From Melaminivora jejuensis (GTDB taxonomy: Bacteria > Pseudomonadota > Gammaproteobacteria > Burkholderiales > Burkholderiaceae_C), in NCBI RefSeq assembly GCF_017811175.1, contig NZ_JACWIJ010000002.1, forward strand, positions 310,001-374,000: a DNA stretch of 64,000 bases. The letters run 5' to 3'. Position numbers and translations under genes: made by a program. The notes under the pieces were generated by a model. It made no database searches. It had not been told where the DNA came from and was given only the letters and a program-made list of their open reading frames with translations. Shown here in pieces: positions 12,514-49,245 of this stretch; the stretch's first letter is position 1; every line of letters begins with the position of its first letter.

Positions 12514-13401
12514 TTATTTCTGCCGCGCCAGCACGCGCGCCAGCACGTTCAGCGCCAGCACGGCTACCGTGATGAGCAGCACCGCGGCCCAGGCCAATTG
12601 CTGCCAGTTCTCGTAGGGGCTCATGGCGAACTTGAAGATGGTCACCGGCAGGCTGGCCATGGGCTTGGACAGGTCGCCGTTCCAGAACTGGTTGTTCAGC
12701 GCGGTGAAGAGAAGCGGCGCCGTCTCGCCGGCGATGCGCGCCACGGCCAGCAGCACGCCGGTGGTCACGCCGGCGCGCGCGGCGCGCAGCGTCACCAGGG
12801 TGATGACCTTCCACTTGGGCGTGCCCAGGGCGTAGGCCGCCTCGCGCAGGCTGGCGGGCACCAGGATCAGCATGTTCTCGGTGGTGCGGATGACCACCGG
12901 AATGACGATCAGCGCCAGGGCCATGATGCCGGCCCAGGCCGAGAAGCTCTTGAAGCGCGCCACCACCACTGCGTAGACGAACAGGCCGATCACGATGCTG
13001 GGCGCCGACAGCAGGATGTCGTTGACGAAGCGCGTGGCGCCGGCCAGCCAGCCGCGCGTGTCGTATTCGGCCAGGTACACGCCGGCCAGGATGCCCACGG
13101 GCGTGCCCACGCAGGTGGCCAGCAGCACCATCACGAAGGAGCCGAAGATGGCGTTGGCGATGCCGCCGGCCTCGTTGGGCGGGGGCGTCATCTCGGTGAA
13201 CAGCGCCAGGCTGAGGCCGCCCAGGCCCAGGCGCAGCGTCTCCCACAGGATCCAGATCAGCCAGAACACGCCGAAGGCCATGGCCAGCAGCGACAGCGTG
13301 AGCGCGACGCGGTTGAGCCGCTTGCGCGCCGCGTAGCGCCGTGCGCGTACCTGCGCCAGCTCGGCGGCGGCGATCAGGTGCTGGGATGTGGTGGTGCTCA
13401 T
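12514..13401 (-). CDS. pstA: Phosphate ABC transporter permease PstA
   Basis: A 295-residue inner-membrane permease with about six transmembrane helices and the EAA-type cytoplasmic loop ([20 protein letters not shown]). The conserved motif [14 protein letters not shown] and the [13 protein letters not shown] segment fit PstA. The first four bases of the gene overlap the pstC stop codon (ATGA), so the permease pair is translationally coupled. Confidence 0.96.
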
Positions 13402-14423
13402 GCGCCGGCCCCCTCGCTTTTCTTCAGGCGCGCCAGCAGCAGTTTGGACAGCGACAGCACGACGAAGGTAATGAAGAACAGCACCAGGCCCAGGTAGATC
13501 AGCGAGGCCTGGTGCAGCCCTTGGCCGGCCTCGGCGAATTCATTGGCCAGGGCCGACGTGATGCTGTTGGCCGCCTCGAACACCGACAACGAATCGAGCT
13601 GGTTCATGTTGCCGATCACGAAGGTGACGGCCATGGTCTCGCCCAGGGCGCGCCCCAGGCCCAGCATGATGCCGCCCAGCACGCCCGACTTGGTGTAGGG
13701 CAGCACGACCTTCCAGACCACCTCCCAGGTGGTGGCGCCCAGACCGTAGGCGGACTCCTTGAGCAGCGCCGGCGTGACCTCGAACACGTCGCGCATGACC
13801 GAGGCGATGAACGGAATGATCATGATCGCCAGGATGATGCCGGCCGACAGGATGCCGATGCCCACCGGCGGCCCCGACACCAGCGCGCCGAAGTACGGCA
13901 CGCCGGCAAGCAGCGCCTGCAGCGGCTGCTGCACCCAGGTGGACAGGATGGGGCCGAAGACCATCAGGCCCCACATGCCGTAGACGATGGAGGGCACGGC
14001 CGCCAGCAGCTCGATGGCGGTGCCCAGGGGCCGCTTGAGCCAGGCCGGCGACAGCTCGGTCAGGAACAGCGCAATGCCGAAGCTGACCGGCACTGCCACC
14101 AGCAGCGCGATGAACGAGGTGGCCAGCGTGCCGTAGATCATGACCAGGCCGCCGAAGTCGTTTTGCACCGGGTCCCAGACGCTGCTGGTCAGAAAGCCCA
14201 GGCCATAGGCCTGGATGGCCGGCCAGGCGCCCTCCAGCAGCGAGGCCATGATGCCCAGCAGCAGTGCCAGGGTGATCAGCGCCGCCCCGCGCGCCAGGGC
14301 GCCGAAGATGCGATCGGCGAGCACGCCGGAGACCAGCGAGGGACGCGATGGCGGCGAGCTTCGGGAAGCGCCGCGCGCCGCCTCGATCGGCGGCGCCTGG
14401 TGGACTGGCAGCATGGTGGACAT
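13398..14423 (-). CDS. pstC: Phosphate ABC transporter permease PstC
   Basis: A 341-residue permease partner of PstA. After a soluble N-terminal stretch of about 45 residues come six hydrophobic segments, with [39 protein letters not shown] and the EAA loop [20 protein letters not shown]. Family length is about 300-340. The gene is separated from pstS by 75 bp and overlaps pstA by 4 bp. Confidence 0.96.
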
Positions 14424-14498
14424 ATCCGTTGCCTTGTGGGATCGAAAAGCCGGGAAGGTCGCCAGCCGGCCCGCCGCGCTGGCGGGCCGGCGCGCAGC

Positions 14499-15539
14499 TT
14501 ACTTCAGTGCGATGGGCTGGCCGGAGGCGTCCTTGATGTCGCCCCAGGACTTGACGATCACGCCCTTGACGCTCTCGGGCATGGCCACGTAGTCCAGCTC
14601 CGAGGCCGTCTTGTCGCCGTTCTGGTAGGCCCACTCGAAGAACTTGAGCGCCGTGGCGGCCTGCGCCGGCTTGTCCTGCGCCTTGTGCATCAGGATGAAG
14701 GTGGCCGAGGTGATGGGCCAGGCATCCTTGCCGGGCTGGTTGGTCAGGATCTGGTGAAAGCTCTTGGCCCATTCGGCACCCGCCGCAGCCGCCTTGAAGG
14801 AGGCTTCGTCAGGAGAGACGAAGTTGCCGGCGCTGTTTTGCAGTTGCGCGAAGGTCAGCTTGTTTTGCTTGACGTAGGCGTACTCCACGTAGCCGATGGA
14901 GTTGGGCAGGCGCCCCACGAAGGCGGCCACGCCCTCGTTGCCCTTGCCGCCGGCGCCCACGGGCCAGTTCACGGCCGTGCCTTCGCCCACCTTGGACTTC
15001 CACTCGGCATTGACCTTGGACAGGTAGTTGGTGAAGCCGAAGGTGGTGCCCGAGCCGTCGGCGCGGCGCACCGGCGCGATCGCTGCGTCCGGCAGGGCCA
15101 AGCCCGGGTTCAGCGCCTTGATGGCCTCGTCGTTCCACTTGGTGATCTTGCCCAGGTAGATGTCGCCCAGCACCTGGCCGCTGAGCTTGAGCTGGCCAGG
15201 CTGCAGGCCCTTGACGTTCACCACCGGCACGATGCCGCCGATGACGGTGGGGAACTGCACCAGGCCCTTGGCGGCCAGTTCGTCGTCCTTGAGCGGCGCG
15301 TCGGAGGCGCCGAAGTCCACCGTCTTGGCCTCGATCTGGCGCAGGCCGGCGCCCGAGCCGACCGACTGGTAGTTGATCTTCACCCCCGTGGCCTTGTGGT
15401 AGTCGGCGGCCCACTTGGAATACAGCGGCGCGGGGAAGCTGGCGCCGGCGCCCGTGGCTTCCTGCTGGGCCCAGGCGCCCGTGACCATACCCATCGCCAT
15501 CACACCAGACACCAGAACCCGAATCGCGGAGAGTTTCAT
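14499..15539 (-). CDS. pstS: Periplasmic phosphate-binding protein PstS
   Basis: A 346-residue periplasmic binding protein that feeds phosphate to PstCAB. A Sec signal peptide covers about residues 1-24 (MKLSAIRVLVSGVMAMG, with cleavage expected after AWA). The mature start TGAGASFPAPLYSKWAADYH and the ligand loops SVGSGAGLRQI, GASDAPLKDDEL and RADGSGTTFGFTNYL are characteristic. It is the first gene of pstSCAB-phoU-phoB-phoR. An 11-bp-period Pho box and a -10-like hexamer lie just upstream. Confidence 0.97.
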   Translation of the reverse strand: MKLSAIRVLVSGVMAMGMVTGAWAQQEATGAGASFPAPLYSKWAADYHKATGVKINYQSVGSGAGLRQIEAKTVDFGASDAPLKDDELAAKGLVQFPTVIGGIVPVVNVKGLQPGQLKLSGQVLGDIYLGKITKWNDEAIKALNPGLALPDAAIAPVRRADGSGTTFGFTNYLSKVNAEWKSKVGEGTAVNWPVGAGGKGNEGVAAFVGRLPNSIGYVEYAYVKQNKLTFAQLQNSAGNFVSPDEASFKAAAAGAEWAKSFHQILTNQPGKDAWPITSATFILMHKAQDKPAQAATALKFFEWAYQNGDKTASELDYVAMPESVKGVIVKSWGDIKDASGQPIALK

Positions 15540-15859
15540 GAGAAGACCTCTTGGTTGGAAAAAAGCTATGGCGGCACTCTAGGGGCCGTTTGTGACATGC
15601 CCGTGACACGGCGGCGCAGCCGTCACACAACACCCTGGGCGCCAGCCGGCTTGCCGTGGCCGCTTTGGTGGCTGCTTCTTTCCCCCCCCCCTTGTGTCTC
15701 TCGCGTGCGCCGCTGCTGCGGCGCCCCGAGCGCGCTGGCGCGCCTGGGGCGATTGCGCCGCGGACTTGTCATACCACTGTCGCAATCGCTGCGTACTCTG
15801 GCGCCGCCGACCGCAGTCGGCCCCGTCCAATGACCGACACACTCTCTGGGAGAAGAACC
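15540..15859. other. Intergenic region between pstS and the fasciclin gene
   Basis: A 320-bp divergent promoter region. It holds the pstS Pho box and -10 element. A run of nine or ten C lies near 15677. No ORF of convincing coding character was seen, and no operator for the plus-strand fasciclin gene was recognised. Confidence 0.6.
15576..15609 (-). promoter_or_regulatory. Pho box and -10 element of pstS
   Basis: On the minus strand GTGTCAC-GGGC-ATGTCAC (15591-15609) has two TGTCAC half sites exactly 11 bp apart, as in the PhoB consensus CTGTCAT-N4-CTGTCAT. Ten bases downstream is TAGAGT (15576-15581), a 4/6 match to the -10 consensus, at the spacing usual for PhoB-activated promoters that lack a -35. 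Confidence 0.82.
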
Positions 15860-30618: not shown

Positions 30619-32073
30619 TCACGGCTGACTCGATGACAGGGTGTCGAAAGCCTGGCCCAGCGCCGTGATGCCGTATTGCAGCACCAGGACGGCGTCGACG
30701 CCGCAGGCCTGGGACAGCTGCTCCAACTGCTCGCTGGCGTGGCTTTCGTTGGCCCGCGCCAGATTCAGCACATCGCGATAGATGCCGGGCTGGCCTAGCA
30801 GCGCCTGATGCACCGGCTCGGGCAGCCGGGTTTCCTGCAGCAGCGTGGGCAGGGGCTGGCCCGTCAGCAGGTCGAGCATGGAAAACAGGCCCAGGATGAA
30901 CAGCTCGTCGCCGTTGTCCGGTACGCGCCCCTTGCCGGCCAGGCCCTCCAGGAAGAAGGCGCGCGTGAGTGCCTGCTCGGTCAGCAGCCGCTCGCGAAAG
31001 CCGCTTTGGCGGATGTCGAACAGCAGTAGCGACAGCCAGCGAAAGCAGCGCTCGCGCCCGAGCAGCTGCAGCGCCGTGTCGATGGTCAGCACCGGGTTGG
31101 GCAGGCCAATGGCGGGCGAGTTCAGGTAGCGCAGCAGCTTGAAGGTCATCACCGGGTCAGTGGTGATTTGCTGGGCGATGTTCTTCAGCTCTTCATCGCT
31201 GCGCAGCTGGTTGAGCAACTTCAGCGTCAGCACCCGGTTGGTCTCGCTCCTGGGTGGGTGCCAGTTCTCCCGGCTGGTGACGAAATCGCCCAGGAAGTGG
31301 CCGAAACCCATGCGAAAGCACAGGTCGAATTCCTCATGGACGTACAGCTCGGCAGCCATCAGCTGCAGCTTGCCCTTGCCGGACGGGCGCTGCTGTTGCA
31401 GATCGCGTAGCAGGGTCTTGATCTGCAGCCCATCCATGCCGCCGGTCAGTATCTGCACGTGGTCGCCCTGGGCGGCCAGCGCCAGCAGCGCGGGGTGCTC
31501 GTCCAGCCCCTTGGTGCCCACCACCCAGCCGATGGCAAAGCCGGCCTCGCGAAGTCCCCGCAGCCGTGGCTCAAGAGTCTCGGGCTGTAGCGGCTGGCGT
31601 CCTGGCTTGAGCATCAGCACCGTGCCCTGTGTCGGCAGCCGCTGCAGCAGCGGGTTGTCCAGCGACACTGGCGACAGCCCGACGAAGGCCAGGCGATGCC
31701 CCAGCAGGCTGTGGATGCCCAGGGTGGTCAGATTGCGCAGCAGCAGGTCGTCATAGACCTTGAGCTGCAAGTCCTGCTTGCCCTGCAGGCGCGATTGAAG
31801 GTTGTCCTGCAGATTGAAGGTATATCCGGCAATGCGCTCCTCGCGGTCGAGCACCGGCTCGCGGCGCACGAAGGTGGCGCTGATCAGCGCCTCTGTGCCT
31901 TGTCTGGCAGCCCGGATGGGCAGGTCGCTGGGAGCGGGCGGCGCGCCTTTCAAGGGGGCAATACGCTCCAGTGCCTCGAACTGTTGGCGGCTTTGCGCCT
32001 CGGGCGAAGGCGGGGCAGTCGGAGAATCGTCCGGGCGCGAGCGGCCCAGCAGGCGGCGCAGTGAATCAAGCAT
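30619..32073 (-). CDS. HDOD-domain signalling protein (YuxH-like, degenerate EAL)
   Basis: A 484-residue protein. After a disordered Pro/Ser-rich start, residues about 65-270 resemble a degenerate EAL domain without catalytic residues (ATFVRREPVLDREERIAGYT). Residues about 275-475 form the HDOD domain (LKLLNQLRSDEELKNIAQQI, DPVMTFKLLRYLNSPAIGL, LGRERCFRWLSLLLF, then LFILGLFSMLDLLTGQPLP). HDOD proteins are catalytically silent HD relatives that act in signalling, often in motility or stress responses. It follows rho by 58 bp on the same strand and could share its transcript. Confidence 0.88.
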   Translation of the reverse strand: MLDSLRRLLGRSRPDDSPTAPPSPEAQSRQQFEALERIAPLKGAPPAPSDLPIRAARQGTEALISATFVRREPVLDREERIAGYTFNLQDNLQSRLQGKQDLQLKVYDDLLLRNLTTLGIHSLLGHRLAFVGLSPVSLDNPLLQRLPTQGTVLMLKPGRQPLQPETLEPRLRGLREAGFAIGWVVGTKGLDEHPALLALAAQGDHVQILTGGMDGLQIKTLLRDLQQQRPSGKGKLQLMAAELYVHEEFDLCFRMGFGHFLGDFVTSRENWHPPRSETNRVLTLKLLNQLRSDEELKNIAQQITTDPVMTFKLLRYLNSPAIGLPNPVLTIDTALQLLGRERCFRWLSLLLFDIRQSGFRERLLTEQALTRAFFLEGLAGKGRVPDNGDELFILGLFSMLDLLTGQPLPTLLQETRLPEPVHQALLGQPGIYRDVLNLARANESHASEQLEQLSQACGVDAVLVLQYGITALGQAFDTLSSSQP

Positions 32074-32131
32074 GTGCGTCGGGGGTGACCGGGCAGCTGG
32101 ACGCTGCCTTGGCGGTGTGGGCCGATTCTAG

Positions 32132-33394
32132 TCAGCCGCCCCGGCGCATCGCCTCGAAGAATTCGACGTTGTTCTTCGTCTCCTTCATCTTCTTGATCAT
32201 GAGCTCCATGGACTCGATCTCGTCCATGTTGTACATGAACTGGCGCAGGATGCGTGTCTTTTGCAGGATCTCGGGCGCCAGCAGCAACTCCTCTCGGCGC
32301 GTGCCGCTCTTGTTGAGCTCGATGGCTGGGAAGACGCGCTTTTCATAGAGGCGCCGGCTCAGGTGGATCTCGCTGTTGCCCGTGCCCTTGAACTCCTCGA
32401 AGATGACCTCGTCCATGCGGCTGCCGGTATCCACCAGCGCCGTGGCGATGATGGTCAGCGAGCCGCCTTCCTCGACATTGCGCGCCGCGCCGAAGAAGCG
32501 CTTGGGCCGCTGCAGGGCGTTGGAGTCCACGCCGCCCGAGAGCACCTTGCCGCTGGAGGGCACGACGTTGTTGTAGGCGCGCGCCAGGCGGGTGATGGAG
32601 TCCAGCAGGATGACCACATCCTTTTTCAGCTCGACCAGGCGCTTGGCGCGCTCGATGACCATCTCGGCCACGTGTACGTGGCGCGCCGCCGGCTCGTCGA
32701 AGGTCGAGGCGATGATCTCGCCGCGCACCGAGCGCTGCATCTCGGTCACTTCCTCGGGCCGCTCATCGACCAGCAGCACCATCATGTGGACGTCCGGGTG
32801 GTTGGCAGTGATGGAGTGGGCGATGCTTTGCATCATCATGGTCTTGCCGCTCTTGGGCGGGGCGACGATCAGCGCGCGCTGACCGCGCCCGATCGGCGAG
32901 ACGATGTCGATGATGCGCCCGGTGATGTTCTCCTCGCCCTTGATGTCGCGCTCGAGCTTCATGCGCTCCTTGGGGAACAGCGGGGTCAGGTTCTCGAACA
33001 TGACCTTGTGCTTGTTCTTCTCGGGCGCATCGCCGTTGACCTTGTCCAGCTTGGTCAGCGCGAAGTAGCGCTCGCCATCCTTGGGGATGCGCACCTCGCC
33101 CTCGATCATGTCGCCGGTGTGCAGGTTGAAGCGGCGCACCTGGCTGGGCGAGATGTAGATGTCGTCGGTGGACGCCGTGTAGCTGGTGTCGGGGCTTCGC
33201 AGGAAGCCGAAGCCGTCGGGCAGGATCTCCAGAACGCCATCGGCAAAGACCTGCTCGCCGGCCTTGGCGCGCTTCTTGATGATGGCGAACATCAACTCCT
33301 GCTTGCGCATACGGCCGCCGTTTTCGATCTCCAGGGCCTCGGCCTGCTTGAGCACTTCAGACACGTGCAGTGCCTTGAGTTCATTAAGGTGCAT
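32132..33394 (-). CDS. rho: Transcription termination factor Rho
   Basis: A 420-residue Rho hexameric RNA helicase. The N-terminal domain begins [19 protein letters not shown]; the RNA-binding cold-shock-like domain has [18 protein letters not shown]. The ATPase core has Walker [41 protein letters not shown] and the arginine-finger region [18 protein letters not shown]. Length equals typical betaproteobacterial Rho. The open frame runs 29 codons upstream, but ATG 33394 is the family start. trxA lies upstream on the same strand with its own terminator, and an HDOD gene lies downstream. Confidence 0.98.
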
Positions 33395-41703: not shown

Positions 41704-41726
41704 CGCTATTCATTTTTTGAATAACG
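41704..41726. promoter_or_regulatory. Palindrome in front of the TonB receptor gene (ModE-like?)
   Basis: CGCTATTCA-TTTTT-TGAATAACG: two 9-bp arms with one mismatch and a 5-bp spacer, ending 9 bp before the receptor ATG. The CGnTAT...ATAnCG outline recalls published ModE (molybdate repressor) sites. It does not look like a Fur box. Position over the start region suits repression. The identification rests on shape only. Confidence 0.5.
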
Positions 41727-41735
41727 GGGGTGGGC

Positions 41736-43724
41736 ATGGGAAGTGATGTCATACCGGCCTTGCGCCGAGGCCGTGGATGGCGTGGTGCGCAGCCGTTGCT
41801 GCTGTGCGCGCTCGGTCTGGCGGCAGGGACTGCACAGGCGGCTGACGGGGTGTTCGAGCTGGGCACGGTGACGGTGACGGGTTCGCCCGTGCCGGCAGCG
41901 CCGGCAAGCGAGGCCGCGCTGGGGCAGCAGGAGATCGCGCGCAACAATGCCGACACGGTGTCGGAGGCTGTGCGGCTGCTGCCCGGCGTGAGCCTCTCGC
42001 GCGTGGGTGCGCGCAACGAGGAGATGATCTACCTGCGCGGCTTCGATTCGCGCCAGGTGCCGGTCTATGTGGATGGCGTGCCGCTGTACGTGCCCTATGA
42101 CGGCTATGTCGATTTCAGCCGCTTCACCACCTTCGATCTGGCCGAGATTCGCGTGGCCAAGGCCGATGCCTCGCTGCTGTATGGCCCCAATACGCTGGGT
42201 GGTGCGATCAACCTCGTCACGCGCAAGCCGGCGCGCCCGTTCGAGGGTGATGCACGCCTGGGCCTGGGCGCTGGCCAAATGCGCAAGGCGGCAGTCAACC
42301 TGGGCGGCAATCAGGGCGCCTGGTACTACCAGCTTGGCACCTCCTACCTGGACGCCGACGGCTTCCCGCTGCCCAAGGGTTTCAAGGACTACAAGCGCCA
42401 GCCCACCGACACCGGCAGCCGCCGCGAGAATGCCTATCGCACAGACCAGCGCCTGTCGTTCAAGCTGGGCCTGACACCGAATGCCACCGACGAATATGCG
42501 CTGGGCTACGTGCGCCAGGAGGGTGAGAAGGGCAATCCGGTCTATGCCGGCACCTCTGCGCAACGCAACGCCGTGCGCTACTGGCGCTGGCCGTACTGGG
42601 ACAAGGACAGCGTGTACTTTCTGAGCACCACGCGCATCGGTGCGGACAACGTGCTCAAGACCCGCCTGTACCACGACAGCTACAAAAACGGCCTGGATAT
42701 CTACGGCGACGCCAGCTACGGCAGCCACGATCCCACCAGCGCCTACCAGGACACCAGCAAGGGGACGACTTTCGAATGGGCCAACTACAGCCTGCGCCGC
42801 CACGAGCTGCGTCTGGCTGCGCACTACAAGGTCGATGAGCATGACGACGCCGGCCAGTTCTACCGCGACGTGACCACCTCGCTGGTGGCCGAGGACAGCA
42901 TCGCCCTGGGCGAGCGCTGGCGCCTGAATCTGGGCGTGAGCCATGAAAAGCGCGATGCCCGGCAGGTGTACTACTGGCCCAAGGGCTCGGCCAACGCCAC
43001 CAACGGACTGGCCAGGTTGAGCTATGCGCTCACGCCCCAGGGCGATGAGGTGTATGCCGTCATCTCGCACAAGACGCGCTTTCCCACCATCAAGGATCGC
43101 TACTCCGCCCGCATGGGCCGCGCCTTGCCCAACCCCGACCTCAAGCCCGAGAGTGCCAACCACTTCGAGCTGGGCGTCAGCGCCCGGCCCTGGGCCGGCG
43201 GCACCGGCCAGGCGGCTGTGTTCTACAGCCGTGTGCGCGACCAGATTCAGACCGTGGTGGTGTCCTCCGGCGCCTGCGGCGGCTCCACCTGCGACCAGGC
43301 GCAGAACGTGGGCCGCACGCGCAGCCTGGGGCTGGAGCTGTCGCTGGCGCAGCAGTTGGCGGCCCAGTGGAGTGCCAATGCCAGCTACACCTACCTGAGC
43401 CGCACCAATCTCAGCGACCGCCGCGTGATGCTGCTCGATACCCCGCGCCATCGCCTGTTTGCTGCCGTCAACTGGCAGGCCAGCGCCCTGTGGGAGCTGC
43501 GCGCCACGCTGGAGGCCGAGCAGGGCCGCCGGGTGAGCCTGGATAGTGCCTACCGCCAGCTTGGCGGCTTCGGCACTACCGGCTTCAAGGCGATCTACCG
43601 GCCTGCCAAGGGCGTTGCGGTGGATTTCGGTGTGAACAATCTGGCGGACAAATGGTACGAGTTGGCTGACGGCCATCCCATGCCGGGCCGGTTCTGGTAT
43701 GTCAATGGCTCCTACCGCTTCTGA
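41736..43724 (+). CDS. TonB-dependent outer-membrane receptor
   Basis: A 662-residue receptor. Signal peptide about 1-31 (PLLLCALGLAAGTAQA), a TonB-box-like FELGTVTVTGS, a plug domain (ETVSEAV-like ADTVSEAVRLLPGVSLSRVG, NEEMIYLRGFDSRQVPVYVD, YGPNTLGGAINLVTRKPARP) and a 22-strand barrel ending in an aromatic residue (FWYVNGSYRF). ATG 41736 follows GGGGGT; an in-frame GTG six bases earlier is less likely. It is the first of seven overlapping genes ending in a Mop protein, so the ligand is probably a molybdate- or tungstate-containing species, although TonB receptors of this type also carry ferric siderophores and cobalamin. Confidence 0.9.
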   Translation: MGSDVIPALRRGRGWRGAQPLLLCALGLAAGTAQAADGVFELGTVTVTGSPVPAAPASEAALGQQEIARNNADTVSEAVRLLPGVSLSRVGARNEEMIYLRGFDSRQVPVYVDGVPLYVPYDGYVDFSRFTTFDLAEIRVAKADASLLYGPNTLGGAINLVTRKPARPFEGDARLGLGAGQMRKAAVNLGGNQGAWYYQLGTSYLDADGFPLPKGFKDYKRQPTDTGSRRENAYRTDQRLSFKLGLTPNATDEYALGYVRQEGEKGNPVYAGTSAQRNAVRYWRWPYWDKDSVYFLSTTRIGADNVLKTRLYHDSYKNGLDIYGDASYGSHDPTSAYQDTSKGTTFEWANYSLRRHELRLAAHYKVDEHDDAGQFYRDVTTSLVAEDSIALGERWRLNLGVSHEKRDARQVYYWPKGSANATNGLARLSYALTPQGDEVYAVISHKTRFPTIKDRYSARMGRALPNPDLKPESANHFELGVSARPWAGGTGQAAVFYSRVRDQIQTVVVSSGACGGSTCDQAQNVGRTRSLGLELSLAQQLAAQWSANASYTYLSRTNLSDRRVMLLDTPRHRLFAAVNWQASALWELRATLEAEQGRRVSLDSAYRQLGGFGTTGFKAIYRPAKGVAVDFGVNNLADKWYELADGHPMPGRFWYVNGSYRF

Positions 43725-44250
43725 TCTGGCAGCCATCGTCTGCGCCAGCGATCTGGCCGACAGCGATGCGGTCGATGCGCTGGTGCTGGGTTTTTGCCAG
43801 GGTCTGCAGCGCGCTGGCTGGCGCGTGGGCGGTCTGGTGCAGCGGCGCCTGCCGGCTCCGGGCGGCGGCAAGCCGCTGCTGGAGCTGCAAGATGTGCGCA
43901 CAGGCCAGCTCTGGCCCATCTCGCAAAGGCTGGGGACCCTCTCGCGTGCCTGCAGCCTGGACACTTGTGCCCTCGCCCAGGCCAGCGGCGTGCTGCGCCA
44001 GGCGCTGGCCGATGGGGTGCAGTTGGCGGTGACCAATCGCTTCGGCGAGCTGGAGGCCGCAGGCGGCGGCTTTGCCGCCGAGCTTGCGGCTCTGGCGGGT
44101 GCGGGCATTCCCGTGCTGACGGTGACCGGTCGCAAGCATGTCCAGGCCTGGCGCTGCTTCACGGGCGGCCTGGGCGCTGAATTGCCGGCGCAGCCGGCAG
44201 CTCTGCACGCCTGGTTCACGCAGGCTGCGGGGCGCGGGGTGCCTGCATGA
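43705..44250 (+). CDS. DUF2478-family protein
   Basis: A 181-residue protein matching my recollection of the DUF2478 family: AAIVCASDLADSDAVDALVL at the start, GGLVQRRLPAPGGGKPLLEL, SLDTCALAQASGVLRQAL, VTNRFGELEAAGGGFAAELA, and TVTGRKHVQAWRCFTGG. The NRFGELE and GRKH segments suggest a nucleotide- or ligand-binding Rossmann-like fold. It lacks a signal peptide and is probably cytoplasmic. The family has no proven function but is known beside molybdenum transport genes, in line with the Mop gene at the end of this operon. The start lies inside the receptor gene (ATG 43705, or 43699), and the stop overlaps the next start. Confidence 0.8.
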   Translation: MAPTASDLAAIVCASDLADSDAVDALVLGFCQGLQRAGWRVGGLVQRRLPAPGGGKPLLELQDVRTGQLWPISQRLGTLSRACSLDTCALAQASGVLRQALADGVQLAVTNRFGELEAAGGGFAAELAALAGAGIPVLTVTGRKHVQAWRCFTGGLGAELPAQPAALHAWFTQAAGRGVPA

Positions 44251-45317
44251 CGCGCCCTGGGCTGCACCACCGGCGCCGCTTGCTGCTGCAGTTGCCGCTG
44301 GCGCTGGCTGCTGCGCAGGTGCCGGCGCGCGCCCAGGTGCCTGGCGCCCAGGAGGTGGTTGTCGCGCGCTTTGGCGTGCAGCCCGCACCTGAGCGGGTAC
44401 GCAAGGTGTTTGCTGCAGGCCCGCCTGCCGGCGTGCTGGTGGCGGCGCTGGCGCCCGGCAAGCTGGTCGGCTGGCCGCTCACGCTCGGCGACGAGGCGCG
44501 TGCCTTGCTGGGCCCGCAGCTGCGCGCACTGGCGCACAGCGGGCGCCTGTCCGGGCGCGGCAGCACGGTGCCGCTCGAAGCGCTGTTGCAACTGCAGCCC
44601 GATCTGGTGCTGGACGCAGGCACGGCGGACGCCACTTATGTCTCTGGCGTGCGCCGCGTGAGCGAGCAGACCGGCCTGCCCACGGTGCTGATCCAGGGCC
44701 GCATCGCCGACCATGCCGCCCAATTGCGCGAGGTAGGGCGCCTGCTGGGCGTGGCCGAGCGCGGCGCGCTATTGGCCGCCGAGGCCGATGCAGCCATTGC
44801 TCTGGCTGCGCGGATACGTGCCAGCGTGCCGCCTGCCCAGCGTCCGCGTGTGTACTACGGGCGTGGCACGGATGGGCTGGAGACGGGGCTGTCCGGCTCC
44901 ATCAACGTGGAGCTGCTGGACTTTTGCGCGGGCCGCAATGTGGCAGCCCAGGCCGGCCAGGGTTCACTCGTGCGTGCGTCGCTGGAGCAGCTCCTGCTGT
45001 GGAACCCCGAGGTCATCGTCACGCAGGATGCGGCCTTCGCACGCCGTGTGCGCGCTGACCCGCTGTGGCGCGGCATCGCTGCCGTGCGTGCGCAGCGTGT
45101 GCATTGCGCGCCTGCGCTGCCCTTTGGCTGGCTCGATGGGCCGCCTGGCGTGAACCGCCTGATCGGTGTGCGCTGGCTGCTGGAGCGGCTGCACCCGGGA
45201 CACCCGGTGCTGCGTGCGCAGGCGCCGTTGCCCGAGGCCGTGCGGCGCTTCTACCAGTTGTTCTATGGCGCCAGCCTGGCGCCCCAGGAGCTGCAGGGGC
45301 TGCTTGATGAAATATGA
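44247..45317 (+). CDS. MolA/FepB-type ABC transporter substrate-binding protein
   Basis: A 356-residue periplasmic receptor of the metal-chelate (class III) type. N-terminal signal about 1-29 with RRRLLLQLPLALAAAQVPA, then two lobes joined by a long helix: VLVAALAPGKLVGWPLTLG, VPLEALLQLQPDLVLDAGTA, VLIQGRIADHAAQLREVGRL and LLDFCAGRNVAAQAGQGSLV. The late motif FGWLDGPPGVNRLIGVRWLL resembles MolA-like receptors, which bind molybdate/tungstate, as well as iron-complex receptors. The ATG overlaps the DUF2478 stop by 4 bp, and its own end overlaps the permease start by 11 bp. Confidence 0.88.
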   Translation: MTRPGLHHRRRLLLQLPLALAAAQVPARAQVPGAQEVVVARFGVQPAPERVRKVFAAGPPAGVLVAALAPGKLVGWPLTLGDEARALLGPQLRALAHSGRLSGRGSTVPLEALLQLQPDLVLDAGTADATYVSGVRRVSEQTGLPTVLIQGRIADHAAQLREVGRLLGVAERGALLAAEADAAIALAARIRASVPPAQRPRVYYGRGTDGLETGLSGSINVELLDFCAGRNVAAQAGQGSLVRASLEQLLLWNPEVIVTQDAAFARRVRADPLWRGIAAVRAQRVHCAPALPFGWLDGPPGVNRLIGVRWLLERLHPGHPVLRAQAPLPEAVRRFYQLFYGASLAPQELQGLLDEI

Positions 45318-46376
45318 GTCAAATCAGGCTCAAAGGCTTGCTGGACAAGCGCTAACAGCTCCTTTTTCAGTAGCTGGACAACGGCTGCGCTGGCTGCTGG
45401 CCGTGGCGCTGCTCGTGGCGCTAGTCCTGGCGGCCTTTGCGGCGGGCAAGTTTCCAGTGGCGCCGGGTGAGTTGTGGCGTGCCGTGACTGCGCGCCTCAT
45501 GGGCTGGGATTCGGGCCTGCCGGTTGCGGTAGAGACTGTGGTCTGGAGCATCCGCCTGCCGCGCGTAGCTGCCGGATTGCTGGTCGGCGCGGTGCTGGCG
45601 GCGGCAGGCGCCACCTATCAGGGCATGTTTCGCAACCCGCTGGTGTCGCCCGACATCCTGGGTGTATCGGCTGGCGCCGGACTGGGAGCGGTGGCGGCCA
45701 TTTACCTGGGCCTGCCTGTGGTGGCAGTGCAGGCGCTGGCTTTTGCGGGCGGGCTGCTGGCTGTTGGGGCGGTGCTGGCGGTGGCCGGACTGGTGCGTCG
45801 CCATGACCCGGTGCTGGTGCTGGTACTCGCCGGCGTAGCCGTGGGGGCATTGCTGGGTGCGGGTATCTCGCTGGTCAAGATTCTGGCCGACCCGATGGCG
45901 CAGTTGCCGACCATCACTTTCTGGCTGCTGGGCGGCCTCAACGCCATCACTGCCGCCGACTTGTTGGCCACCGCGCCGGCACTGCTGGCCGGGCTGGTGC
46001 CCATGGCGCTGCTGCGCTGGCGCATCAACTTGCTGGGCCTGCCCGATGAGGAGGCGCTGGCGCTGGGCGTGGCCGTGGGCCGCCTGCGCCTGGTGCTGGT
46101 GGCCGCCGCCACGCTGGCCACGGCGGCGGCTGTGTCGCTGGCCGGCATCATCGGCTGGGTCGGCCTGGTGGTGCCGCACGTGGCGCGGCTGCTAGTGGGG
46201 CCGGAGTTTTCGCGGCTGCTGCCCGCATCGCTGCTGCTGGGTGGGGGGTTCCTGGTGGCGGCGGACACGCTGGCGCGCACTGTGGCCCCATCGAGGTGCC
46301 GCTGGGCATCCTCACCGCTTTGGTGGGTGCGCCGTTTTTTCTGTTCCTGCTGGCCGGCACCGGGAGTCGGTCATGA
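45307..46376 (+). pseudogene. FecCD-family ABC transporter permease, frameshifted near the C-terminus
   Basis: An inner-membrane permease of about 356 residues when repaired, with some ten helices: PRVAAGLLVGAVLAAAGATY, QGMFRNPLVSPDILGVSAGA, WLLGGLNAITAADLL and IIGWVGLVVPHVARLLVGP, all hallmarks of the BtuC/FecCD/MolB group. At the C run 46286-46289 one base is missing; adding it restores IEVPLGILTALVGAPFFLFL and a stop at 46374-46376 that overlaps the ATPase start. The first 25 residues ([17 protein letters not shown]) are encoded by a dispersed repeat, so the true start may be further in. The lesion could be a sequencing error. Confidence 0.82.
45310..45370 (-). repeat. Dispersed repeat, copy 8, forming the 5' end of the permease gene
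   Basis: Minus-strand reading GGAGCTGTTAGCGCTTGTCC, AGCAAGCCTTTGAGCCTGAT and TTGACTCATATTTC. It overlaps the end of the binding-protein gene and encodes the N-terminus of the permease. Confidence 0.78.
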
Positions 46377-47152
46377 GCGCGGTGCTGCAGGCGCAGGCCC
46401 TGTCCATTGGCCATGGCCGGCGCTGTGTGGCGCAGGGGCTGAACTTTGCCCTGGCGACCGGCGAGGTGCTGTGCCTGCTGGGCGCCAACGGCGGCGGCAA
46501 GACTACGCTCTTGCGCACGCTGCTCGGCCTGTTAGCGCCGCTGGCCGGCGAGGTGTCCTGCGGCGGGCAGAACGTGGCCGCCTGGCCGCGCGCGGCCTTC
46601 GCGCGCCATGTGGGCTACGTGCCGCAGGCGCACGCAGGCCTGTTTGCCTTCACTGTGGAGGACGTGGTGCTCATGGGCCGGGCTGCGCGCGTGGGGCGGT
46701 TTTCCGCGCCGAGTGCGCAAGACCGGCGCATCGCGCTGCAGTGCCTGGAGCTGCTCGGTGTCGGGCACCTGCGCCGCAGCGTCTATACCGCCATCAGCGG
46801 CGGCGAGCGGCAGCTTGCGCTGATCGCCCGCGCACTGGCGCAGGAGCCAGCGCTGCTGGTGATGGATGAGCCAACGGCCAGCCTGGACTTTGGCAACCAA
46901 ATCCGGGTGCTGCAGCACATCGAGCGCCTGCGTGCCGCTGGCATGACCGTGCTCATGACCACGCACCAGCCCGAGCACGCGCTGCGCGTTGCCGATCGCA
47001 TCGCGCTGCTGGGCGGTGGGCGGCTGGTGGCCATCGGTGCGCCGCACGCCACGGCCACGCCGGCCGCCCTGGCAGCTCTCTACGGCGTCAGCGAGGCGGC
47101 GGTGGCTGCCAGCCTGGGCAGCGCCTGCTGGGCTGAGGAGGCTCTTGCATGA
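46373..47152 (+). CDS. ABC transporter ATP-binding protein (metal-chelate/molybdate importer)
   Basis: A 259-residue importer ATPase: Walker A LLGANGGGKTTLLRTLLG (about 39-56), Q-loop YVPQAHAGLFAFTVEDVVLM, signature ISGGERQLALIARALAQEPA, Walker B LLVMDEPTASLDFGNQI and switch MTTHQPEHAL. It closely follows the FecE/BtuD/MolC pattern. ATG 46373 overlaps the permease stop, and the stop overlaps the methyltransferase start (ATGA). It would power uptake through the FecCD permease. Confidence 0.93.
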   Translation: MSAVLQAQALSIGHGRRCVAQGLNFALATGEVLCLLGANGGGKTTLLRTLLGLLAPLAGEVSCGGQNVAAWPRAAFARHVGYVPQAHAGLFAFTVEDVVLMGRAARVGRFSAPSAQDRRIALQCLELLGVGHLRRSVYTAISGGERQLALIARALAQEPALLVMDEPTASLDFGNQIRVLQHIERLRAAGMTVLMTTHQPEHALRVADRIALLGGGRLVAIGAPHATATPAALAALYGVSEAAVAASLGSACWAEEALA

Positions 47153-47962
47153 CCATCGAAGCCATCGATTTTGGCCGCCTGTACCGCGACCATCTGGCCC
47201 TGTCCGGGCGCAACCACAAGAGTGCCGCTGCCTGGGACGCGCGGGCCGCCGGCATGGCCGCCAAGGCGCTGGACAGCGGCTACGCCAGCGCCTTTGTGGC
47301 GCGCATGAACCTGCACGGCGCGCAGTCGCTGCTGGACGTGGGCTGCGGCCCTGGCACCATCGCCCTGGCCGTGGCCAGCCGGCTGCAGCGCGTGGTTGGG
47401 CTGGACTACAGCCGCGCCATGCATGGATGCCATGCAGGCGCAGGCTGCAGCGCGCGGGCTGCAGGGCGTCGAAGCCCTGCACCGCGCCTGGGAAGATGAC
47501 TGGAGCGATGTGCCGGTGTGCGACATCGCCGTCGCCTCGCGCTCGACCACTGTGCAGGACATGGCTGCGGCGCTGGAGCAGTTGCGGGCCAAGGCGCGCC
47601 TGCGTGTGTACCTGACGCACCTGGTGGGCGGGCACTTCACCGATCCGCTGATCCAGCAGGTCATTGGCCGCGCCCTGCCCACGGTGCCCGACTACATCTA
47701 TGTGCTCAACATCCTGCACCGCATGGGCCTTCATCCTGAGCTGTCGTATCTGACGCAGGAAAACCGCCTGGCCGGTGCGCCGGACTGGGACGAATTCGCG
47801 CGTCGCGTGGCCTGGTCGATGGGCAGCCTGGACGAGGCCGAAACCGCACGCCTGCGCGCCTGGTACGAGCGCGCCACGCCGCAGCAGCGTGCCGGCGCAC
47901 CCATGCGCTGGGCCTTCATTTCCTGGGAGAACCCCCATGGCGAGCACCATGACGCGCATTGA
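47149..47962 (+). pseudogene. Class I SAM-dependent methyltransferase, frameshifted
   Basis: A methyltransferase of about 270 residues when repaired. Motif I is LLDVGCGPGTIALAVASRL, followed by VVGLDYSRAM, then DIAVASRSTTVQDMAAALEQ and LRVYLTHLVGGHFTDPLIQQ. The frame changes at 47419-47425: GCCATGCATGGATGCC needs one base removed to give SRAMLDAMQAQAAARGLQG. This is the only +1 lesion in the window; the others are losses. Methyltransferases of this type recur beside molybdate/metal-chelate transporters, but the acceptor is unknown; modification of the ligand or a chelator is a guess. It overlaps the ATPase gene upstream and the Mop gene downstream. Confidence 0.78.
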
Positions 47963-48154
47963 GACCGCCCAGGCGGGCGCCACCTTGCTGGCCGAGCTGC
48001 AAGCCGAAGTCACGCAGCGCTCGGCCTGGAGAGTGGTGCCTCAGTGGTGGCCATCGTCACCAACGAAAGTGCCCGGAACCTGGCCTTGGCCGAGGGCGTT
48101 CCGGCTGCTGCCCTGTTCAAGGCATCCAGCGTCATCGTCGGCGTGGCCGGCTGA
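47937..48154 (+). pseudogene. Mop/TOBE-domain molybdopterin- or molybdate-binding protein, frameshifted
   Basis: A small protein of about 72 residues when repaired. The upstream part reads MTRIETAQAGATLLAELQAE and VTQRSA. One missing C at 48025-48026 breaks the frame. The continuing frame gives LESGASVVAIVTNESARNLA and VPAAALFKASSVIVGV, which is the TOBE/Mop signature (compare KATSVMVGV in known Mop proteins). Single-TOBE Mop proteins bind molybdate or tungstate oxyanions in the cytoplasm. As the last gene of the operon it is the strongest clue to the transported ligand. The start (ATG 47937, or 47949) lies within the methyltransferase gene. Confidence 0.78.
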
Positions 48155-48206
48155 GAACCGGTTCACGGCTTTTCCTCGTGGATGCGCTCCGAGAGCGCTC
48201 GGTATC

Positions 48207-48848
48207 TCAGAACTTGGTGCGGTAATACACCATCGGCCCGCCATGCCGGGCGCGCAGCAGCAGCTTGGCATCGCCCTGCAGCTGCACGCCGATGGCACCG
48301 AACTCGGGCACCAGACCGCCGGTGCGCGAGGCCTTCCATTGCACTTCCAGCCGGGTGCCGACGCTGGCCGGCTCGCGCGCCCAGACCATGCCCAGGGCAT
48401 CAGGTGCGCCCGGGCGCTGCGGGCTGCGCGCCCAGGCCTGCACGTCCAGATGTATGCGTTGCTGCAGGCGCGAGCGCCAGCGCAGGCCCAGGTCATAGGC
48501 CAGCGGGGCGGACTGGGCGCCGCTGGCGCCGGAGGCCGACAGCACGCCCAGCGTCATGCCCAGGCTGGATGGCCGGTCGGCAAACAGCCAGCCGGTCATC
48601 TCGCTGTAGTGCGCCGGCCCGGCAGGCAGGCCATTGCCAGCACGGGTGAACAGCGGCGCATCTTCGCTGCGCAGGGTCAGCGGCGCTTGGGCGGCGGTGA
48701 GCTGCTGGGGGGCCGTGTGCTGGAAGGTGGCGGCCAGGGCGCGTCCGGCCAGGTCGTCCTGGGCCTGGACAGCCGGGCCAGCCAAGATGAGCAGCAAGGC
48801 AACTGCCAGGGCGCTGGTGCAGGGTGCGGGGTGGAGGCGGGCAGTCAT
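48207..48848 (-). CDS. Secreted protein of unknown function (possible small outer-membrane barrel)
   Basis: A 213-residue protein with a clear Sec signal (about 1-30, LAVALLLILAGPAVQA). The mature part alternates polar and hydrophobic residues and contains several strand-like runs (YDLGLRWRSRLQQRIHLDVQ, GTRLEVQWKAS, LQGDAKLLLRARHGGPMVYY) and ends in a terminal Phe, as outer-membrane barrels do. I do not recognise a family. ATG 48848 was chosen for the signal peptide. It is convergent with the molybdenum operon, so a functional link is possible but not shown. Confidence 0.6.
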   Translation of the reverse strand: MTARLHPAPCTSALAVALLLILAGPAVQAQDDLAGRALAATFQHTAPQQLTAAQAPLTLRSEDAPLFTRAGNGLPAGPAHYSEMTGWLFADRPSSLGMTLGVLSASGASGAQSAPLAYDLGLRWRSRLQQRIHLDVQAWARSPQRPGAPDALGMVWAREPASVGTRLEVQWKASRTGGLVPEFGAIGVQLQGDAKLLLRARHGGPMVYYRTKF

Positions 48849-49147
48849 GGCGGCACACTCTCGTCGGTCAGCCAGGGGTGTTGCCGGCCAGTATGCAGCC
48901 ATGCCCCTTGACCTCTCATCGCCTGACGGCGCACCCGCCTGTCGGACTGAAGCCTACGCCGCCCGAGGTGCTGTGGCGAACAGGCCTTTCAGGCGTCGCC
49001 GAACGCACAGCGCACGGCTGCAGCCCGCGCGCGACATTCTGGAAGCGATAGGAAGCCCAAGGGCTGGGCGCTGCCCAGCGCGTGCCTGGGCGCGAGCAAT
49101 GGGCAGAAGAAAGGGAGGGAGGGGAGAGTAGAAGAGTGAGAGGTGAC
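48849..49147. other. Intergenic region between the secreted-protein gene and 4.5S RNA
   Basis: About 300 bp. It contains a hairpin GCTGGGC-GCT-GCCCAGC near 49064-49080 and a purine-rich stretch (49100-49140). No coding sequence, riboswitch or terminator with a T-run was recognised. Confidence 0.45.
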
Positions 49148-49235
49148 GAGCCTTACCCCCGGCACTGGCTCCACGGTTAGGGCTGCTTGGTTCCCCACCT
49201 GACCCGGTTGGCCGCTTCCCCATGCGGGGAGGCCC
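49148..49235 (-). ncRNA. ffs: Signal recognition particle 4.5S RNA
   Basis: The minus strand carries the SRP RNA apical domain GGGTCAGGTGGGGAACCAAG followed by CAGCCCTAACCG, with the GGAA tetraloop closed by TGG/CCA and the internal-loop bases that bind Ffh. Flanking arms GGGCCTCCCCGCATGG and GTGCCGGGGGTAAGGCTC pair to extend the rod. The ends are approximate. Its position next to dnaX-ybaB-recR is usual for Burkholderiales. Confidence 0.93.
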
Positions 49236-49245
49236 GTCAGCGGCG

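Follow-up and report, generated by a model that had tools for sequence, protein, structure and literature searches.

The stretch of Melaminivora jejuensis DNA analysed here (the window; 64,000 nucleotides, C2:310001-374000 of a two-contig, 3.75-Mb genome) carries an operon at 41736-48154 that, judged from its sequence, likely specifies a ModE-repressed, TonB-driven uptake of scarce, probably chelated molybdenum (Mo) or tungsten (W), feeding an ATP-binding cassette (ABC) importer of the MolBCA/BtuCD type. The operon is real: gene starts overlap the ends of the preceding genes, as an earlier note on this DNA had described, and Pfam located all of the families that the note had assigned to its seven genes. 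Seven intact genes are ruled out, as three of the seven (the permease, the methyltransferase and the supposed 'Mop' gene) span more than one reading frame in this assembly. The features are as follows.

41704-41726, no strand assigned: putative ModE-type operator, CGCTAT-N11-ATAACG, with its last base at -10 from the receptor ATG
41736-43724, plus strand: TonB-dependent receptor, 662 amino acids (aa); PF00593 9.4e-36, PF07715 4.2e-21, plug and barrel only by Pfam
43699-44250, plus strand: DUF2478 protein, 183 aa; PF10649 157.5 bits, THEP1-like predicted fold, no Walker A motif
44247-45317, plus strand: periplasmic binding protein of the MolA/BtuF type, 356 aa; PF01497 1.8e-16
45307-46376, plus strand: FecCD/BtuC-type permease, frame broken near 46288; PF01032 4.3e-74
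46373-47152, plus strand: ABC transporter ATPase, 259 aa; PF00005 4.3e-28
47149-47962, plus strand: class I S-adenosylmethionine-dependent methyltransferase, frame broken near 47424; PF13649 2.5e-06 in the first piece
47937-48034, plus strand: remnant, first codons of a DUF364/DUF4213 gene (blastn of 47900-48170 against relatives)
48035-48154, plus strand: remnant, last part of a di-Mop molbindin (ModG-like) gene, in a different frame from the DUF364 remnant (blastn, PF03459)

The sequence CGCTATTCATTTTTTGAATAACG at 41704-41726, directly upstream of the receptor start, is a predicted E. coli-type ModE site. The consensus for such sites is ATCGNTATATA-N6-TATATANCGAT (PMC545781; here and below, papers are cited from excerpts), with the core CGNTAT-N12-ATANCG; the window site has a spacer of N11 instead of N12. 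The pattern CGYTAT-N11/12-ATARCG has exactly two occurrences in the 3.75-Mb genome, against none for its reversed control; the second (C2:1879073-1879095) separates a ModE-type gene from modA, which is followed by modB and modC. This ModE-type gene (L140 8231-9034, minus strand) scores 82.3 bits against TIGR00637 (cut-off 98.5), 100.9 bits against NF007957 (cut-off 369) and 51.8 bits for its Mop domain (cut-off 55); by its domains, which are the right ones, its product is a ModE homologue, lying below all curated cut-offs. Among 12 family operons, window included, nine carry an exact CGNTAT-N11/12-ATANCG within 300 bp of the receptor, two a box with one mismatch and one a box with two. Receptor relatives in named genomes number 463, of which the best-scoring 80 were taken for neighbourhood counts and 79 for the box count, L101 being excluded for want of upstream DNA. 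An exact ModE-type box lies between -350 and +200 of the open-frame start in 41 of these 79 (33 distinct boxes), compared with 0/79 in the reversed sequence and 15/3349 random 550-bp windows of the same loci. When one mismatch is allowed, 58 relatives have a box versus 8 reversed; two mismatches (62/79 versus 47/79 reversed) were rejected as a definition of the box. Counts over relatives are not independent because several rows are close strains, and at least four contigs are common to the named 80 and the family set (L048=L028, L052=L030, L053=L022, L068=L026).

The genes found beside the receptor in relatives connect this receptor family with molybdate. The bacterial family has 19 DUF2478 loci besides that of the window (L041, a weak second DUF2478 match of G219, is excluded), and the order receptor, DUF2478, binding protein, permease, ATPase is conserved in 11 of them. 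Close relatives have a longer operon, comprising receptor, DUF2478, binding protein, FecCD permease, ATPase, methyltransferase, DUF364, ModA, ModB, ModD and di-Mop genes; in the same-genus genomes G072 (L027) and G178 (L026) the methyltransferase gene is followed by DUF364/DUF4213, ModA, ModB, ModD and di-Mop. The DUF364 gene of L027 is intact (PF04016 and PF13938), its ModA, ModD and Mop are over their NCBIfam cut-offs and its ModB is at the cut-off. A genuine di-Mop protein is encoded in the relatives' operons. Among the 11 family operons (the L030 ATPase, the L023 DUF364 fragment and the broken pieces of the window were left out of profiles or cut), a methyltransferase is present in seven, full-length DUF364 in five with a fragment in one more, ModD in five, a Mop gene in seven and ModB in seven, four of the last being directly downstream in the operon with ModA. 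Three stretches (L022, L024, L030) have no DUF364, ModD, Mop or ModB. L031 keeps DUF364, ModD and Mop genes (13020-15654) without ModA and ModB, suggesting that the accessory block was lost piecemeal in the family. The other eight family DUF2478 loci are without this receptor; three are near ModB, two of these also near Mop (L025, L039, L040).

In stretches of up to 10 kb on each side of the receptor, DUF2478, ModB, ModD, Mop or DUF364 was found in 57 of the best 80 relatives, compared with 2 of 17 control stretches from three genomes, where both positives are ModB-type permeases. The exact box is present in 30 of these 57 linked loci and in 11 of the 23 others. The 80 include Comamonas, Delftia, Acidovorax, Pusillimonas, Alcaligenes, Stenotrophomonas, Pseudomonas, Zoogloea, Dechloromonas, Sideroxydans, Janthinobacterium and one Verrucomicrobiaceae metagenome-assembled genome. 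In Stenotrophomonas (L067) and Sideroxydans (L107) the receptor gene and a ModE-type gene diverge from each other, and in one Janthinobacterium (L125) the gene after the receptor has a molybdopterin-binding oxidoreductase domain. Three of the 11 family operons have an extra gene in a gap of 864-1070 bp after the receptor, which is absent from the window operon:

L023 8201-9088: extra gene between receptor and DUF2478
L026 7753-8706: extra gene between receptor and DUF2478
L030 7606-8778: extra gene between receptor and DUF2478

The products are mutually 63-74% identical over 261-271 aa and weakly of the SBP_bac_11 type, to which ModA belongs (one of the three is over the Pfam cut-off); that of L026 also has a weak match to TupA (E 0.0013, 18.2 of 400 bits). 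The extra gene probably encodes a second periplasmic oxyanion-binding protein.

At its 3' end the window operon departs from the complete layout. The earlier note had read 47937-48154 as a single-TOBE Mop protein and had drawn on it for the link to Mo; this argument fails as given because the supposed gene is the scar left by a deletion, in which the first part of a DUF364 gene runs into the last part of a di-Mop gene. In a blastn comparison of window 47900-48170 with L026, L027, L028, L031 and L032, positions 47978-48024 resemble L026 13424-13470 (87%), near the DUF364 start, and positions 48035-48154 resemble L026 16954-17073 (80.8% over 120 bp), at the end of the di-Mop gene. As the flanks align to sources ~3.5 kb apart in this same-genus relative, the window is without ~3.5 kb and the remnants are joined out of frame. 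The open reading frame is spread over two frames and holds no complete TOBE/Mop domain in an open frame; its TOBE fragment (48005-48154) covers PF03459 profile positions 25-64 of 64 and scores 34.3 bits against TIGR00638, under the cut-off of 55. A 74-aa database protein (P0121, 98%) has the same DUF364/di-Mop fusion as an open frame, and the deletion is therefore not peculiar to this assembly. The partial profile, the sub-cut-off score, the blastn scar and the P0121 fusion together rule out the window 'Mop' as an oxyanion binder. No match to DUF364 was found elsewhere in the window's genome. A deletion has removed DUF364-ModA-ModB-ModD and most of the di-Mop gene from the window species, which keeps the TonB-ABC core. 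If the operon works there, DUF364, ModD and di-Mop would be dispensable, since they were lost while the core and the chromosomal modABC were kept. The note's wider claim of a TonB receptor dedicated to Mo or W loses its window Mop and gains independent support from the ModE-type operator, the conserved linkage to ModA/B/D, Mop and DUF2478, and the kinship of the binding protein to MolA.

The receptor has the plug (PF07715) and beta-barrel (PF00593) of a TonB-dependent transporter, both over cut-off. Its nearest solved structures by profile are the colicin I receptor (2hdf, 4.5e-35) and then ferric enterobactin receptors, and all 25 NCBIfam receptor models among the matches listed are under their cut-offs. 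It shares plug and barrel with the catecholate siderophore receptors CirA, FepA and PfeA, the closest solved receptors by profile, but stands behind a ModE-type rather than a Fur-type site and has relatives beside molybdate genes. Within receptor residues 514-519 (window 43275-43292), Cys514 is invariant and Cys519 nearly so among 12 receptors; the pair is possibly a disulfide or a ligand site. The FecCD permease, separate ATPase and MolA-related binding protein reproduce the layout of the MolBCA family by sequence. The binding-protein alignment profile matches 4pag (2.8e-46), MolA HI_1472 (3psa, 2e-20) and BtuF (1n2z, 1.1e-9), and the best NCBIfam matches of the ATPase, all under cut-off, are ATPases of F420-0, corrinoid and heme importers. 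MolBCA of Haemophilus influenzae is thus similar in its binding protein, FecCD-type permease and separate ATPase; the window system differs in that the best solved match of its binding protein is 4pag and not MolA, and in its added TonB receptor, DUF2478, methyltransferase and ModE-type operator. MolBC-A is described as a low-affinity system, and MolA binds both molybdate and tungstate (PMC4031551). That molybdate systems also take tungstate (PMC4031551), that ModE senses W (PMC9171197) and that the L026 extra gene weakly matches TupA would all suit a system whose true cargo is tungstate, vanadate or a complex of either and in which ModE senses the oxyanion that is imported. This seems quite improbable, as the neighbours belong to the molybdate families ModA, ModB and ModD, and matches to WtpB and WtpC are far below cut-offs.

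Receptor and ABC parts alike come from families best known for siderophores, heme and vitamin B12, and five distant relatives lie beside SBP_bac_6 genes, three of them also beside di-haem oxidoreductase (DHOR) genes. An iron-chelate or cobalamin uptake operon lying near Mo genes by chance would account for this, and we give that account very little credence in the face of the ModE-type operator and the Mod linkage across many lineages. Homologous operons of the cobalamin or siderophore kind, which the earlier note had named as the contrary case, did not emerge from the riboswitch and Fur tests, biosynthesis genes not having been searched systematically. No cobalamin riboswitch was found in five sources (window, L027, L028, L031, L140), and the scores against the BtuB model TIGR01779 (113.6 of 599.7 bits) and the BtuF model NF002894 (18.6 of 234) both fall under the cut-offs. 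The system resembles BtuB-BtuFCD in combining a TonB receptor, a binding protein and a FecCD-type ABC importer, and is unlike it in showing no riboswitch in these five sources and in having Mod genes inside the relatives' operon. The best match to a Fur 19-mer before the receptor is 12/19 in the window, overlying the ModE-type box, and 9-10 of 19 in 11 relatives; a string nearly identical to this 19-mer is printed in PMC545781. The Fur-iron and cobalamin readings were set aside on these results.

Several points nevertheless weigh against uptake of Mo or W by this system. The binding protein is also like BtuF and the heme and iron-chelate binders, with lower scores; the window's genome already has modABC; its copy of the operon is frame-broken in two genes; only 20 of the 250 genomes of the family, that of the window among them, have DUF2478; and in 12 of the 80 relatives both an exact box and a linked gene are missing. 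Over 12 genomes the loose box is no commoner than its reversed control: the eight with the receptor have 2, 2, 2, 4, 3, 2, 2 and 3 boxes (reversed 1, 1, 2, 5, 1, 3, 5 and 2) and the four without it 1, 1, 1 and 0 (reversed 4, 0, 0 and 2). With the control equal or higher in six of the 12, significance by genome-wide count was rejected. The loose pattern alone therefore means little, and the significance of the box would lie in its position (an exact box is at the receptor in seven of eight receptor-bearing family genomes scanned whole) and in the stricter pattern in its own genome. Some distant relatives have iron-like neighbours: an SBP_bac_6-type binding protein is next to the receptor in five (L098, L103, L107, L113, L120), and DHOR is second in all three of these whose second gene was scanned, neighbours that would also fit iron:

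L098 11901-14629: receptor relative, then SBP_bac_6 and DHOR
L107 11991-14602: receptor relative, then SBP_bac_6 and DHOR
L120 12002-14655: receptor relative, then SBP_bac_6 and DHOR

This arrangement may be a second operon type for another metal or another chemistry.

DUF2478 has a predicted THEP1-like fold. This assignment is made on the predicted structure and was separated only by a second look with VIA-align, as Foldseek alone gave no match under 1e-3. Two matches of the DUF2478 sequence to solved structures, both at E 0.69, are not credible. The Walker A motif GxxxxGK[ST] is present in 0 of 36 DUF2478 rows, and the protein thus has no THEP1-type P-loop. The methyltransferase model has a generic class I fold, nearest to N-, S- and other small-molecule methyltransferases at TM-scores of about 0.5-0.6, and its comparison with structures gave no hint of a substrate. 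DUF364 and ModD are not known to have assigned functions. The methyltransferase and DUF2478, which the earlier note had placed in the processing of the imported complex, may act there. They could also, with ModD and DUF364, be salvage enzymes in a Mo-controlled, BtuB-BtuFCD-like import of an organic Mo compound such as molybdopterin, the molybdenum cofactor (Moco) or a degradation product. The overall BtuB/BtuFCD-like plan, the THEP1-like predicted fold, the methyltransferase in seven of 11 family operons and the relation of ModD to quinolinate phosphoribosyltransferase (L027, TIGR01334 2.3e-67) are in keeping with salvage. We regard it as improbable, because no identified operon gene is a known molybdopterin synthesis or cleavage enzyme and both methyltransferase and DUF364 are missing from four of the 11 family operons. 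Processing by these two proteins is accordingly not obligatory.

Molybdate is usually pictured as diffusing through porins, and a TonB receptor brings an advantage only where porins supply a ligand poorly. For this reason the cargo of the receptor is argued to be a chelate; since the receptor is related to catecholate receptors, Mo or W complexed by a catecholate is the first candidate. In the mechanism we propose for Mo or W uptake, low cytoplasmic molybdate would release ModE from the operator at 41704-41726 and the operon would be expressed; molybdate-bound ModE represses modABC (PMC9171197, PMC4031551), so that expression should occur when Mo is short. The TonB-driven receptor would then import Mo or W in a form that is too bulky or too rare to be supplied through porins, most likely as an organic, catecholate-like chelate, and the MolA/BtuF-type binding protein would pass the cargo to the FecCD permease and ATPase. 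Where the operon is complete, the methyltransferase, DUF364, DUF2478 and ModD may process the complex in the cytoplasm, while ModAB would provide a second molybdate route and the di-Mop protein would store the oxyanion.

In the window the frames of the receptor, DUF2478, binding protein and ATPase are open, and the breaks in the permease and methyltransferase were detected by comparison with relatives. A near-identical intact permease (P0122, 356 aa, 100% identity over the 327 aa given) and a methyltransferase without a break (P0017, 270 aa, matching 90/91 and 178/179 residues of the two pieces in the window) exist in other assemblies, and the two breaks may therefore be assembly errors, or else peculiar to the strain. 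Two frame breaks and a multi-gene deletion within 6.4 kb would also be expected of a decaying pseudogene cluster without present function in this genome, as would breaks flagged by script near 12.5, 32.0 and 52.0 kb of the window, of which only that at ~32.0 kb stands against both same-genus relatives. Decay of this kind, which is compatible with Mo or W uptake in the relatives, appears unlikely given the intact genes in other assemblies and the four open frames. The break at ~32.0 kb, outside the operon, is a frame shift at 31992-32132 in a gene conserved in both same-genus relatives. Adjoining the operon is a conserved 231-aa protein (48207-48902, minus strand), whose relatives follow the operon in L026 and L027 and in L028, L031 and L032 precede the receptor gene; that of L027 has no Pfam match. 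Further on, 49142-49238 (minus strand) is a bacterial small signal recognition particle RNA, present downstream of the operon in L027 and L031 too.

Much of this system has known counterparts, namely MolBCA, ModABC/ModE, molbindins, TonB receptors and the outer-membrane molybdate route of Pseudomonas aeruginosa, in which ModA secreted by a type VI secretion system (T6SS) acts with the outer-membrane protein IcmP (PMC11734730, PMC9171197). In that T6SS-ModA-IcmP route molybdate likewise crosses the outer membrane, but the carrier is a protein secreted by the H2-T6SS and the route is described as metallophore-independent (PMC9171197). The ModABC-ModE regulon shares the ModE-type operator, and its ModA, ModB, ModD and di-Mop genes are inside the relatives' complete operon, which differs in that it would energise passage across the outer membrane and has a second importer of the FecCD type. 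Catecholate molybdophores are known from Azotobacter and embody the same concept of chelated Mo uptake; no receptor or operon of this kind appeared among the matches listed for them. The new part is the TonB receptor family with its ModE-type site and this operon, a candidate metal-chelate TonB-ABC system for Mo. No description of a ModE-controlled TonB receptor was found among the matches listed, in excerpts of the open-licence literature; subscription papers, RegPrecise and SEED, which lay outside the search, may list one.

We put forward, tentatively and at less than even confidence, that a ModE-controlled TonB receptor family widespread in Beta- and Gammaproteobacteria imports organically bound Mo, as a molybdophore or in Moco-derived form, which would be released in the cytoplasm by the methyltransferase, DUF364/DUF4213, ModD and the P-loop-less, THEP1-like DUF2478. 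If true, an oxyanion metal would have a complete metallophore pathway of its own, comparable to the siderophore and cobalamin systems. The molybdophore question becomes directly testable, with receptor, binding protein, operator and genomes carrying the complete operon named. DUF2478 gains a context and a predicted fold, and DUF364 and ModD gain a context. The retention of a ModE-type site and of molybdate genes as neighbours across a receptor family would mean that many bacteria spend TonB energy on Mo (or W) at the outer membrane, and it suggests that some of them actively pull Mo, probably carrier-bound, through the outer membrane.

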